The notes below the pieces were generated by a model, which saw only the letters and a program-made list of their open reading frames with translations, was not told where the DNA came from and did no database searches. From positions 1 through 23,395 of the IMG/VR virus record IMGVR_UViG_3300006790_002190: a DNA stretch of 23,395 nt, one strand, 5' to 3'. Position 1 is the first letter of the stretch. Each line of letters begins with the position of its first letter. A program made the position numbers and the translations under genes. Positions 3,488 to 15,786 of the stretch are shown here, in pieces. The stretch comes from a virus.

Positions 3488-3684
3488 AAATCAGTAGGTG
3501 TTGCTAATATATTTTCTTTTGATCTATTATATATGTCATCCAATTCTTCTACCACATGATTTCTTCCCCATCTTGTTGTAATGACTGTTGCATCTTTTAC
3601 TCTTTCAATAGATACTACTGTATCCAAATTGTAAAGTACTGTTTCTTTACTTTGATAGTCCGTTAGTTTTACTAAGTGTGCCAT
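3484..3684 (-). CDS. Hypothetical small protein, 66 aa
   Basis: The protein begins MAHLVKLTDYQSKETVLYNL. The open frame extends upstream to 3744, but that extension lies inside the tRNA-Cys, so the ATG at 3682-3684, 10 nt after the tRNA's CCA, is the sensible start. The pattern of short strands (VKLTDY, TVLYNLDTVVSI, DATVITTRWG, NHVVEEL) followed by an acidic helix suggests a small beta-rich domain. It is faintly like FlbD-type small proteins, a resemblance I would not rely on. It is coupled to the next gene by an ATGA overlap. Function unknown. Confidence 0.6.
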   Translation of the reverse strand: MAHLVKLTDYQSKETVLYNLDTVVSIERVKDATVITTRWGRNHVVEELDDIYNRSKENILATPTDL

Positions 3685-3694
3685 AAATTTAAAT

Positions 3695-3770
3695 TGGAGC
3701 ACGCCCAGGGTAACGCTCCCTGCATAGATGGTTTTGCAGACCACTCCGTTCGCTTGCTCGGTCGACGTGC
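3695..3770 (-). tRNA. Atypical tRNA-Cys (anticodon GCA) with non-canonical D and T loops
   Basis: A 76-nt cloverleaf can be drawn. The acceptor GCACGUC/GGCGUGC is all paired with one U-G. The anticodon arm is GUGGU-CUGCAAA-ACCAU with anticodon GCA, the variable loop is CUAUG, and the T stem is CAGGG/CCCUG. Discriminator U and an encoded CCA follow; U73 with GCA is the Cys identity combination. The oddities are a T loop of AGCGUUA instead of UUCRANY, G at position 8 instead of U, and a D arm with only three solid pairs (CCG/CGG) and no GG pair in the loop. It lies one base from a normal tRNA-Ile2, which supports tRNA ancestry. It may be a functional unusual tRNA, a decaying one, or a tRNA mimic. 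Confidence 0.7.
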
Positions 3771-3771
3771 A

Positions 3772-3847
3772 TGGTGGGCCTTGTAGGATTTGAACCTACG
3801 GCCAATCGATTATGAGTCGATTGCTCTAACCGCTGAGCTAAAGGCCC
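3772..3847 (-). tRNA. tRNA-Ile2 (anticodon CAU, expected lysidine, reads AUA)
   Basis: A complete 76-nt cloverleaf is present. The acceptor is GGGCCUU/AAGGCCC, the D arm is GCUCAGCGGUUAGAGC, and the anticodon arm AUCGA-CUCAUAA-UCGAU has anticodon CAU. The T arm is GUAGG-UUCAAAU-CCUAC, with discriminator A and an encoded CCA. The D arm and the anticodon loop CUCAUAA closely match the E. coli minor isoleucine tRNA (ileX) as I recall it, not elongator or initiator Met. Host TilS would have to modify C34 to lysidine for AUA reading, which suits an AT-rich phage. Elongator Met is the alternative. Confidence 0.88.
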
Positions 3848-5492: not shown

Positions 5493-6131
5493 TTAATTAT
5501 AACTACAATCTAAATTATACAACTGATTAAGTTTACTAATACATTCAAATTCTTCTTTACAAAATTTTCTTAAATTTTCTAATGATTTTTGAGTAAGAGG
5601 TGTAGATTTTGAAATAGTTTTATTTTGCGTACTAAAATTATTAGCACGTATTTTAAGTTTAGTATTAAAAAATTTAGCTAAATCTTCATTTAAAGTTTCT
5701 TGCTTAAAAACAAACTCTATATTTTTTGGATCAATTTTTTCTAAAAACTCTTTTAAGTAAAATGAAATATTATAACGAACATGATGTACATTTAGAAAAT
5801 CTTCTTTTACTTTATCATCATCTAAATTTTGTGCAATGTTATTAATATTTTTATATTTGTTTAAAACTTCTATTTCAAAATTGTTTTTTGGATTTTCAGT
5901 CTTTTTTTCAATTAACACGCTATATCTATAACGAAAAGCTGAAACTAACCTTTCAACTGGATGTCTTATATTAATAAGGTATTTTAGATTATTATCTATA
6001 ACAGGCTTTTTTTCATGGGCAATAAATCTATCACCGTTTAAAAAATTACTAATATTATGATCACGTAATGCTTTTCTAATAGAAAGACCGCCGCATTTTC
6101 CTATATGTATAAAATAAAGCTTATTATTCAT
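5493..6131 (-). CDS. Sulfotransferase (Sulfotransfer_2-type), 212 aa
   Basis: Two PAPS-binding elements are visible. The 5'-phosphosulfate loop is FIHIGKCGGLSIRKAL (residues 7-22, as in the family's hxPKxGSTS loop). The 3'-phosphate site is INIRHPVERLVSAFRYRY (residues 53-70), with Arg56 and Ser64 in the usual places. The family transfers sulfate from PAPS to a hydroxyl or amino group, often on a carbohydrate. The start is set at the ATG at 6129-6131; an earlier in-frame ATG at 6146 lies inside tRNA-Thr. A run of six Ts separates the tRNA's CCA from this ATG. The substrate is unknown, but the many glycosyltransferases in the window suggest a phage-made glycan. Confidence 0.8.
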   Translation of the reverse strand: MNNKLYFIHIGKCGGLSIRKALRDHNISNFLNGDRFIAHEKKPVIDNNLKYLINIRHPVERLVSAFRYRYSVLIEKKTENPKNNFEIEVLNKYKNINNIAQNLDDDKVKEDFLNVHHVRYNISFYLKEFLEKIDPKNIEFVFKQETLNEDLAKFFNTKLKIRANNFSTQNKTISKSTPLTQKSLENLRKFCKEEFECISKLNQLYNLDCSYN

Positions 6132-6137
6132 AAAAAA

Positions 6138-6214
6138 TGGAGCCAAAGATCGGACTCGAACCGATAACCTGATGATTACAAATCAACTGCTCTGCCAATT
6201 AAAGCTACTTTGGC
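6138..6214 (-). tRNA. tRNA-Thr (anticodon UGU)
   Basis: A 77-nt cloverleaf is visible. The acceptor is GCCAAAG/CUUUGGC, the anticodon loop UUUGUAA gives UGU, and the T arm is AUCGG-UUCGAGU-CCGAU. The discriminator is U and CCA is encoded. The anticodon stem GUUGA/UCAUC has one U-U mismatch. It decodes ACA. It is four bases downstream of tRNA-Leu, so both probably come from one precursor. Confidence 0.92.
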
Positions 6215-10992: not shown

Positions 10993-11409
10993 TTACTTAA
11001 CTTCGATAATTTTTACATCTTTTTCCTTCTGCTTTTTAGAAGGTACTGTTACTTTAAGCACTCCATTTTCTAGAGATGCTTCAAGCTTATTTACATCAAA
11101 TTTATATTGATCAAAACCAAAAGAACGATTATAACTTTCTTCTTTTGAGCCTCCACTAGAGGTAATAGTTCTTGATGCATTAATGTAAACTTGATCTTCT
11201 TCAACCGTCATTTTAAGGTTTTCTTTAGTTACACCAGGTAGATCAATTTCACATGTGAATTGTTTATTTGTAGTATTAAATCTAACCTTGTCGTCAGAAA
11301 AGGAGGATTTACCTAACGAAAAAAATGGATCGTTAAAAAAAGTATCTAACAGATCTGAGCCGTACCGTCCCGCTCTCGGACTTCCTAAAACACTTAATAA
11401 TTTACTCAT
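10993..11409 (-). CDS. hsp20: Small heat-shock protein, Hsp20/alpha-crystallin family
   Basis: The 138-aa protein has a Phe-rich N-terminal arm (LLDTFFNDPFFSLG). The alpha-crystallin domain includes CEIDLPGVTKENLKMTV and the hallmark LENGVLKVTVP near the C-terminus. The end is KIIEVK, a likely variant of the I-x-I tail that links dimers. Such proteins hold unfolding proteins and are a regular part of T4-like marine phages, probably assisting late protein folding. The gene is alone on its transcript: a late-type TTAAATA box lies 5 nt before the ATG and a UUCG terminator follows. The length is normal for the family. Confidence 0.93.
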   Translation of the reverse strand: MSKLLSVLGSPRAGRYGSDLLDTFFNDPFFSLGKSSFSDDKVRFNTTNKQFTCEIDLPGVTKENLKMTVEEDQVYINASRTITSSGGSKEESYNRSFGFDQYKFDVNKLEASLENGVLKVTVPSKKQKEKDVKIIEVK

Positions 11410-13132: not shown

Positions 13133-13345
13133 GAATAGTTTTTTTGAGATATTTTTAAATACATTTCTTCCGGTGTCTGACAATTGATTTTCTATAGATA
13201 AAAATGTATCGTGAATTTTTTTCTTTTTAATAGATTTAATAAATACAGGGTCTAGCCCCATATGTTCTTTTACAACATACAGGACTAAACTTAATTCATC
13301 TTCATTTAATTGACTAAGATCATCTGTAAACAATCTTACTGACAT
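13127..13345 (-). CDS. Hypothetical protein, 72 aa, between nrdA and nrdB
   Basis: I do not recognise this small protein. It is helical, with an acidic first third (LFTDDLSQLNEDELSLVLYV) and a basic middle (IKSIKKKKIHDTF). It lacks CxxC, so it is not the glutaredoxin sometimes found beside phage nrd genes. Its start overlaps the nrdA end by 10 nt and nrdB follows after 30 nt, so it is made with the reductase. It may regulate or assemble the enzyme, but only position supports this. Confidence 0.6.
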   Translation of the reverse strand: MSVRLFTDDLSQLNEDELSLVLYVVKEHMGLDPVFIKSIKKKKIHDTFLSIENQLSDTGRNVFKNISKKLFL

Positions 13346-15786
13346 GATTCACAATCTGGATTATTAATATTACAAGCAACTACTGTACCTTCCTGAGCAG
13401 GTGTTGTTTCTTCTTTCTTTACCGTCTTTACTGTGCTTTTTTCAATTTGGCTTGCTCCTTTATTTCTCAGATAATAAGTGGTTTTTAATCCTACTTCCCA
13501 TGCATGCATATACATATCATTCAACGATTTTAACGATGTTTGATCATTATATAAATTCAAGCTTTGACCTTGATCAATCCACACTTGTCTTGCAGCTGCA
13601 GCAGAGATTAACTTAAGTTGATCTTGTTGAAATGCCGTTTTGTATTTGTCTTTTAATCTATTCTTATCGTCTCTACTTACCCCTTTAGGAAACTCATAGA
13701 GCGTTAAATCTCCGTTACATGCTTTAAGGTTTTCTAATGCGTCTATCGTCCATGCTCCTATAGATTTCATATCTTTAACAAACGCATCATTTATCATGGT
13801 AAAATCACCAGATAAAGTACTGTAAACAAAGATATTATTGTAATAAGGTTCAATACTCTGCGCACAGCCAACAATACTACTAATAGTAGCGGTAGGAGCT
13901 ATTGCCATTGTATTGGAATTACGCATTCCATGTCGTTTAATATGGTTTCTAACTGGTTCCCAGTTAAGAGTTGTAGTTACATCGAACTCTCTACCACGAT
14001 ATTCACACAGTTTTTCGTAAGTATCTACTGGTAACAAACCTTTATCCCACAAAGAACCTTTGTACGTTGAATAACTACCACGTTCTTTTGCAAGTTTTGT
14101 ACTAGTATTAATCGCATGATATGAAATATATTCATAAATTTTACCAGATAAGTTAATTGCGTCGTCAGAATCCATGTTGATATCAAGATGATAAAACATA
14201 TCATGCCAACCCATCGAACCTAAACCAATAGGTCTATGTTTAGTGTTAGAATTTCTAGCTTCTTCTGTTGGGTAAAAGTTAATATCAATAACATTGTCCA
14301 ACATTCTAACTGCAATTTCAACTGTACTTTTTAATTTATCATAATTAACATCATCATTATTAAGATGTTCACGCAGATTAATACTACCTAAGTTACATAC
14401 TGCGGTCTCACCATATTCTTTAACCTTTCTAGTACCGTCTTCCTTATAAGTACTAGCCTTAGTATGTAGTAGAATTTCTGTGCAAAGATTTGAACTGTGC
14501 ACAACACCTTCATGCTGATTACTGTAACGTAGATTTGAAGGATCTTTGAATGTAATCCACGGGTGACCCGTTTCGAAGATCATTCGGAGCATCTTCTTCC
14601 AAAGCTCCTTCGCATCTACTTTCTTGAACGTCTTTAACTCCCCAGCTTTACCCCGTTTAACACATTCTGCATATTCATTTTCAAACTCTTCACCCCAGCT
14701 TTCATGAAGAGTTGGACATTCATATGGACTGAACAAATACCAATCACCACTCTTCTTAACTTGCTTAATAAACAAGTCTGGAATCCAATTAGCCGTATTC
14801 ATGTCATGAGTACGTTTACGTTCATCACCTGTGTTTTTCTTTAGTTCAAGAAACTCATTAATTTCACCATGCCACGATTCAAGATAACCACAACCAGCTC
14901 CTTTACGTTTACCACCTTGGTTAACTGCAACAAGCATGTCATTATAAATTTTCCAAAAGTAAACTGCACCCTGAGATAATCCGTTGGTACCTTTAATAAG
15001 ATTACCAGCCGGTCTAAATGGGGTTAAGTCCATACCTAAACCGCCTGCAAATTTACTCTTTAGCGCTTCTTGATGTAGCCCATCGAAGATACCATCTATA
15101 CTATCTTCAAAAGTTGATAAAAAGCAAGATGAGAGTTGATTGTGAACACAACCAGAGTTAAACAAAGTAGGCGTTGATGACATGAATGTAAACGTCGAAA
15201 GGACGTCGTAGAACTTTTTCGCCCACTCGGTTTTATTTTCCTCTTTTATTGCAAGACCCATTGCAACTCTCATCCAAAATGCTTGAGGTGTTTCTAACCT
15301 CTTTTGATCAATATGCAAAAGATACCGATCATAAATTGTTTGTAAGCCGAGATATTCAAATTTATCGTCTCTTTCAAGTTTTAAGTAATTTGAAAGCTCG
15401 GTTAAATTAAATTTCTTTAGTTCTTTTGAGGCAATACCCTCTTTAACAAGACGCTTAAGATTAGTAATAAAACTTTTTCTATATTGTAACTCATATGCGT
15501 CTTTGTCTGCACTTTCATTAAACACTTCTTTGACAATAGTTTTATGCAAAAGTCTTGCTGCTACTTTTTTGTATTCAGGTTCTTGTTCAATTAAAGCTCT
15601 TGCTGACTTAATAAGCGATTTATCAATATCAGAAGTTTTTACCCCGTCAAAAAGTTTAATTCGAGCATTGTAGATAATTTGATCTACATCTACCGATTCA
15701 ATATTTTCGCAAGCTCTAACGACGCAAGTTTTAATTTTCTCTTCGTCAAAAGCTGCTTTCCTGCCGTTTCTTTTAATTACATTCAT
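13336..15786 (-). CDS. nrdA: Class I ribonucleotide reductase alpha subunit
   Basis: The 816-aa enzyme makes deoxyribonucleoside diphosphates. Residues 1-90 form an ATP-cone (VIKRNGRKAAFDEEKIKTCV), so dATP/ATP control of activity is possible. Catalytic residues are visible: C221 and C464 as the redox pair, N433-L-C435-T-E437 as the radical Cys and acid-base residues, and Y771-Y772 for radical transfer. The C-terminal DCESCQ provides the thioredoxin-facing cysteines, here only two residues apart. Length is normal for class I. The ATG overlaps the upstream stop (ATGA). It pairs with NrdB encoded 240 nt downstream. Confidence 0.97.
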   Translation of the reverse strand: MNVIKRNGRKAAFDEEKIKTCVVRACENIESVDVDQIIYNARIKLFDGVKTSDIDKSLIKSARALIEQEPEYKKVAARLLHKTIVKEVFNESADKDAYELQYRKSFITNLKRLVKEGIASKELKKFNLTELSNYLKLERDDKFEYLGLQTIYDRYLLHIDQKRLETPQAFWMRVAMGLAIKEENKTEWAKKFYDVLSTFTFMSSTPTLFNSGCVHNQLSSCFLSTFEDSIDGIFDGLHQEALKSKFAGGLGMDLTPFRPAGNLIKGTNGLSQGAVYFWKIYNDMLVAVNQGGKRKGAGCGYLESWHGEINEFLELKKNTGDERKRTHDMNTANWIPDLFIKQVKKSGDWYLFSPYECPTLHESWGEEFENEYAECVKRGKAGELKTFKKVDAKELWKKMLRMIFETGHPWITFKDPSNLRYSNQHEGVVHSSNLCTEILLHTKASTYKEDGTRKVKEYGETAVCNLGSINLREHLNNDDVNYDKLKSTVEIAVRMLDNVIDINFYPTEEARNSNTKHRPIGLGSMGWHDMFYHLDINMDSDDAINLSGKIYEYISYHAINTSTKLAKERGSYSTYKGSLWDKGLLPVDTYEKLCEYRGREFDVTTTLNWEPVRNHIKRHGMRNSNTMAIAPTATISSIVGCAQSIEPYYNNIFVYSTLSGDFTMINDAFVKDMKSIGAWTIDALENLKACNGDLTLYEFPKGVSRDDKNRLKDKYKTAFQQDQLKLISAAAARQVWIDQGQSLNLYNDQTSLKSLNDMYMHAWEVGLKTTYYLRNKGASQIEKSTVKTVKKEETTPAQEGTVVACNINNPDCESCQ

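Follow-up and report, generated by a model that had tools for sequence, protein, structure and literature searches.

To our knowledge, the G18-U55, U54/A58 and G19-C56 contacts of the tRNA elbow are treated as near-universal, except in mitochondria and a few special tRNAs. Canonical tRNA also holds a trans Watson-Crick/Hoogsteen-type pair at U8/A14, and Escherichia coli tRNA-Cys retains both G18 and G19 as well as an ordinary T loop. The Steinberg laboratory has reportedly used selected suppressor tRNAs to study the 54/58 pair and D/T helices. The U54/A58 pair of canonical tRNA is likewise of the trans Watson-Crick/Hoogsteen type (PMC7912444). The Levitt pair of E. coli tRNA-Cys is an atypical G15-G48 (PMC9976931), which was also found in many relatives of the tRNA described here, whereas our locus has C15-G48. 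The closest published case is eukaryotic tRNA-Ala, which, according to Westhof et al. (2020, PMC7566577), has R15/A48 together with A54/A58, a combination that neither bacteria nor archaea show. Like the rewired tRNAs we report, it carries linked 15/48 and 54/58 changes in one isotype; however, no 18/55 change has been described for it, whereas in the rewired tRNAs 18/55 is changed and 54/58 is A/U or G/G. With A54/U58 and C15-G48, our locus is therefore not of the tRNA-Ala type. Hallmark elbow nucleotides (GG, T-psi-C) are also missing from tRNA-Pyl and metazoan mitochondrial tRNAs (PMC7609411), but in these the D loop or the connectors are shortened, or the D/T contact is lost, while our locus has normal stems and loop lengths and G19-C56. 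The selC* tRNA-Cys and allo-tRNA are unusual bacterial tRNAs too, one of them a tRNA-Cys, but their acceptor and T stems are 8/4 or 9/3 in place of 7/5. In the open-access literature, which was covered in part, we found no description of an A18/G55 elbow or of phage tRNAs with such an elbow.

The locus lies in a fragmentary virus record of 23,395 bases (hereafter the window, meaning the whole stretch of DNA analysed), which encodes a tRNA-Cys(GCA) on the minus strand, 3770->3695, with the CCA included. By element it reads GCACGTC GA CCG AGCAAGCGAA CGG A GTGGT CTGCAAA ACCAT CTATG CAGGG AGCGTTA CCCTG GGCGTGC T CCA, and every one of its 20 stem pairs is standard, two being G-U (7 acceptor, 3 D, 5 anticodon and 5 T). 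Its parts and its upstream neighbour are as follows.

3695..3770, minus strand: tRNA-Cys(GCA) with the alternative elbow and CCA, 5' end at 3770, identified from sequence, relatives and a covariance-model match of 50.9 bits
3764..3770, minus strand: acceptor 5' strand GCACGTC, pairing with 3699-3705 (7/7 standard), with compensatory changes in relatives L001 and L002
3762..3763, minus strand: G8 A9, with G8 in place of U8; G8/G14 is found only alongside Y15-R48
3749..3758, minus strand: D loop AGCAAGCGAA (with 13 and 22), aligned to L001, L002, L065, L089, L198 and L257
Within the D loop, minus strand: G14 at 3757, C15 at 3756, A16 at 3755, A18 at 3754 and G19 at 3753
3735..3737, minus strand: anticodon GCA, present in all Cys relatives
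3723, minus strand: G48, partner of C15, a Levitt pair swapped from R15-Y48; the 15/48 types co-occur
3711..3717, minus strand: T loop AGCGUUA, conserved in the class; GGCGGUA in the closest relatives, with 54 and 58 both changed
Within the T loop, minus strand: A54 at 3717, G55 at 3716, C56 at 3715, G57 at 3714 and U58 at 3713, then U59 and A60
3695..3698, minus strand: discriminator U73 (3698) and CCA (3697-3695)
3772..3847, minus strand: canonical tRNA-Met(CAT), found by ARAGORN and Rfam

The CCA of the tRNA-Met is separated from the start of the tRNA-Cys by 1 nt, an ATG lies at 3684, 10 nt past the tRNA-Cys end, and the two tRNAs are probably carried on one transcript. Folded as a free single strand, the tRNA-Cys does no better than shuffles (MFE, z +1.06), a measure which is not informative for cloverleafs.

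A first-pass annotation of this DNA had claimed an intact cloverleaf with GCA, U73 and CCA, a T loop of AGCGUUA, G8 and a D loop lacking GG, and all of these were read in the sequence. GCA and U73 are the major CysRS identity elements, with G2-C71 and C3-G70 as minor determinants in E. coli (PMC9976931); the window has C2-G71 and A3-U70 at the latter positions, which are not strictly defining. The window tRNA thus shares with canonical bacterial tRNA-Cys (type I) the 7/5/5 stems, GCA, U73, CCA, G19-C56 and R57, and differs from it in having A18/G55 for G18 and U55, A54/U58 for the U54/A58 reverse Hoogsteen pair, C15-G48 and G8/G14. The annotation had also held that the normal elbow contacts could not form. 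This is correct for G18-U55; G19-C56, however, can form, because the nucleotides it had numbered G18 and C19 are G19 and nucleotide 20 by alignment to relatives. It should be noted that 18/19 assignments throughout rest on alignment of D loops of variable length.

The expectation that automated scans may miss such a gene was borne out. ARAGORN reported tRNA-Arg, Met, Thr and Leu in the window but not the tRNA-Cys, and an Rfam cmscan of the window at E<=1 likewise found the four other tRNAs, all canonical, without it. By contrast, a covariance model built from relatives with the window sequence left out (R1) matched it at 50.9 bits (E 4e-13). This match, together with independent viral contigs carrying a nearly unchanged gene with compensated stems, rules out a chance cloverleaf. 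The misses by ARAGORN extend across the class of G55 tRNAs: 46/49 of those with G54/G58, 47/93 with A54/U58 and 17/140 with U/A, compared with 7/1628 canonical tRNAs. The class is therefore undercounted by ARAGORN, and the window copy escaped the general Rfam tRNA model. An Rfam Plastid-ycf2 match at 3774-3847 (plus strand) was rejected as spurious, being antisense to the tRNA-Met and below the gathering score.

The search for relatives that the annotation had proposed returned near-identical copies in other phages, with compensated stems and the odd loops conserved. The pattern CTGCAAA-N15-AGCGTTA-N12-TCCA matched two contigs (L001, 200 kb; L002, 122 kb) whose D arm and T loop are identical to those of the window tRNA, and their acceptor stems (GCACGGC/GCCGTGC and GCACGGT/ACCGTGC) are compensated relative to GCACGTC/GGCGTGC in the window. 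Relaxing the scan added about 30 further viral contigs in which the cloverleaf is perfect; almost all have an AGCGTTA T loop and a D loop containing AAG. The nearest relatives, from a D-arm motif scan (L198, L201, L209, L221, L223, L227, L230, L233, L236 and L240), have the T loop GGCGGTA, not AGCGTTA, so that 54 and 58 both differ while the remaining tRNA is nearly alike. At least one of them comes from a related phage, since a protein of L223 is 82% identical to the product of window ORF 1272-1718. A neighbour-protein search for the same locus returned L005 alone, without the tRNA and without synteny there, and when the tRNA was compared with isolate phages by blastn, all matches were short and partial and the gene was found in no isolate. 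Other pattern matches, such as L007, L009, L024 and L043, had no stems and were set aside as chance.

Some contigs carry unusual tRNA-Cys genes in other contexts. In one phage contig (L044, 2043 and 1963, minus strand) a rewired tRNA-Cys with T loop CGCGTTA adjoins a canonical one. The tRNA-Cys at L054 7849-7934 has an AGCGTTA T loop, and its D loop, which has no AAG, carries a small hairpin as an insertion (GAGACTCGTCTC). A 551 kb Verrucomicrobia LW23 contig (L065, 6222-6297 and 6418) carries rewired genes for tRNA-Cys and tRNA-His next to a canonical tRNA-Asn, possibly on a mobile element, and the LW23 genome has a canonical tRNA-Cys elsewhere (L101). Verrucomicrobia were considered as a source of the rewired form and rejected: the L065 and L054 genomes also have canonical tRNA-Cys, so the rewired gene there seems to be an additional copy, possibly a mobile one.

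The altered positions were found to change together. Scanning for tRNA-Cys genes whose T loop is TGCRANY gave at least 43 distinct phage genes, all of them A18G19, while the TTCRANY tRNA-Cys genes, among the matches listed, had GG in the D loop; the TGCRANY scan set no D-loop condition, which makes the 18/55 comparison a fair test. When tRNA-Cys genes among the matches listed were clustered at 75% identity, there were 52 GG/U55 clusters, 44 AG/G55 clusters and 0 mixed (Fisher 2e-28, not fully corrected for shared ancestry), and at 85% there were 72 and 58, respectively, with a single exception (L484). Across all isotypes, among the loci listed, GG occurred with UC in 1316 tRNAs and AG with G55C56 in 211, counts which come from pattern scans of mostly uncultured contigs and are not population frequencies. 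Four more G55C56 tRNAs have loops with both AG and GG (CAGG three times, AAGTGG once), giving a total of 215, and with those four counted there are at least two G55C56 tRNAs in each of 20 isotypes. The exceptions were L484 (AG with U55), L352 (G55 without AG), L495 (A18 U19 with G55C56) and L054 (the inserted D-loop hairpin).

Positions 19 and 56 covary in the same way: A56 occurred with GU in 20/20 tRNAs, U56 with GA in 39/39 and G56 with GC in 4/5, so that G-C, U-A, A-U and C-G pairs are all seen. At 54/58, the 216 G55 tRNAs comprised 110 UA, 54 AU and 40 GG, with shuffles giving a mean of 82 and a maximum of 106. The 15/48 types included G-G, A-A, C-G, U-A and others, and G8/G14 was restricted to tRNAs with Y15-R48 (14/14). 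U8/A14 and U54/A58 are the same type of pair, and in some members each is replaced by G/G, consistent with a single kind of exchange. The same switches were found in all isotypes, and in phage and cellular genes alike.

Further A18/G55 phage tRNAs, in some contigs several of them beside canonical ones, were found at L142 11348, L046 7221 and 2948, L054 7134, 7429, 7655 and 7768, L089 1073 and L003 2336 and in L260, L282, L306, L308 and L354.

In a genome scan, many chromosomes of Saccharibacteria (Patescibacteria) were found to carry an AGCGTTA tRNA-Cys. Among 147 Saccharimonadia genomes, nine have a true AGCGTTA tRNA and none of these nine has a TTCRANY tRNA-Cys; the reverse also holds. Six other NGCGTTA matches in this set were without stems and were discarded. 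Neither pattern was present in 44 of the genomes, 39 of which match R1 strongly (72 bits or more); of the 30 that were read, 27 combine a TAG, GAG or CAG D loop with a T loop of TGCRANY type, and the other 3 combine AAG with AGCATTA, GGCGGTA or GGCAGTA. Judged from these sequences, Saccharibacteria tRNA-Cys is a series running from canonical (TGG, TTCRANY) through intermediate (NAG, TGCRANY) to fully changed (AAG, AGCGTTA or GGCRGTA), and it aligns without gaps over 74 nt. In a phylum-wide sample the intermediate was found in 10/96 genomes, with A18G19 in 9 of those 10. One 792 kb contig (G003), which is most but not all of a genome of about 0.9 Mb, was read for its 37 tRNAs: the sole tRNA-Cys is rewired and the A18/G55 elbow occurs in no other.

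A different exchange was seen in a Saccharibacteria tRNA-Gly(GCC) and one other tRNA, which have the T loop TTAGAGT (or TTAAAGC) and a D loop with G18 U19, giving U19-A56 for G19-C56 (G003:C1:306200, L094, L105-L107, L110, L112, L114, L116, L120 and L123).

On sequence evidence, the window gene very probably encodes a tRNA-Cys with A18/G55, A54/U58, a swapped core and G19-C56 kept, most likely translating during infection. In such a tRNA, A18 facing G55 would hold the L-shape in place of G18 facing U55, the G19-C56 contact would be retained, A54/U58 would close the T loop in place of U54/A58, and the core of this sub-class would use C15-G48 for R15-Y48 and G8/G14 for U8/A14. Since the positions have changed together as compensated sets, the fold may be kept without the hallmark nucleotides. 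Hundreds of phage tRNAs show the same swap, as does the one tRNA-Cys detected in a Saccharibacteria chromosome that is nearly complete, which points to an alternative working design, not a broken gene; the annotation's suggestion of a functional tRNA whose elbow is rewired thus has strong support from conservation and coordinated change. We infer the exact geometry of A18/G55, as well as the charging of the window tRNA with cysteine and its use by the ribosome. The modifications m5U54, pseudouridine-55 and Gm18 cannot form on it because the bases are absent.

Why such an elbow should exist is a separate question, and one answer does not compete with the structure itself: selection, as opposed to neutral compensatory drift, could have favoured an elbow that evades a host enzyme reading G18/U54/U55, either a nuclease or, through dependence on their modification, TrmA, TruB or TrmH. 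The form is carried by many phage contigs and in all isotypes, and the letters removed are those which the modification enzymes need (PMC7912444). However, the other four window tRNAs are canonical, and A18/G55 is confined to tRNA-Cys in the G003 Saccharibacterium, a restriction that drift would also explain. We therefore regard selection as an unlikely reason, and it is similarly doubtful that A18/G55 is a second, selected elbow solution by which phages and Patescibacteria evade host elbow-reading enzymes. If this were true, tRNAs would fold without m5U54, pseudouridine-55 and Gm18, and decoding during infection could go on even with host tRNAs under attack or undermodified.

The tRNA elbow is a site recognised by tRNA-binding proteins, and a phage gene with an altered elbow might instead act outside translation as a decoy or mimic, titrating a tRNA-binding nuclease or modification enzyme. 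This is highly improbable given that GCA and U73 (the major CysRS identity elements; PMC9976931) and CCA are kept, that no tRNA-Cys besides the rewired one was found in a Saccharibacteria chromosome, and that elbow variants occur in all 20 isotypes.

A small D/T helix, in which the nucleotides the annotation had called G18-C19 pair antiparallel with G55-C56 (G18-C56 and C19-G55), is suggested by the GC present in both window loops, and the annotation had proposed looking for covariation between the two loops. Covariation is indeed there, at 18/55 and 19/56, but not as the proposed swap. The nucleotide that follows the invariant AG varies (T in 128, C in 58, A in 25 and G in 3) while G55 is constant, so there is no conserved C-G pair at that place; in the gapless alignment with canonical relatives (TGG -> TAG/GAG/CAG -> AAG) the invariant A and G fall at 18 and 19; and in other tRNAs positions 19 and 56 covary with each other. 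We consider this helix very unlikely. Decay of a tRNA-Cys that has lost its elbow, although in keeping with the altered positions 8, 18, 54, 55 and 58 and with a gene that standard finders miss, is left next to no room by conservation and covariation, with 20/20 stem pairs, loop letters identical in distant phages, compensated stem changes, coordinated tertiary positions and the rewired form as the sole tRNA-Cys found in a near-complete Saccharibacteria chromosome.

The preferred reading, a working tRNA-Cys with an exchanged elbow, means that elbow contacts can be swapped in coordinated sets, both in 20 isotypes of phage tRNA and in the cellular tRNA-Cys of Patescibacteria. It offers natural covariation evidence for contacts whose covariation is normally hidden by their invariance, and the Saccharibacteria series shows an intermediate form along the evolutionary path. 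tRNAs unable to take the usual elbow modifications would also be useful for probing the purpose of those modifications.

T4-like structural genes lie elsewhere in the window, on its minus strand. The tail sheath shares about 34-39% identity with those of isolates over partial length, the best E-value among the matches listed being to Pelagibacter phage Mosig. By PHROGs matches, the phage also encodes a sulfotransferase-like protein at 5493-6146, an Hsp20-type protein at 10993-11409 and a ribonucleotide reductase large subunit at 13336-15786, all on the minus strand.
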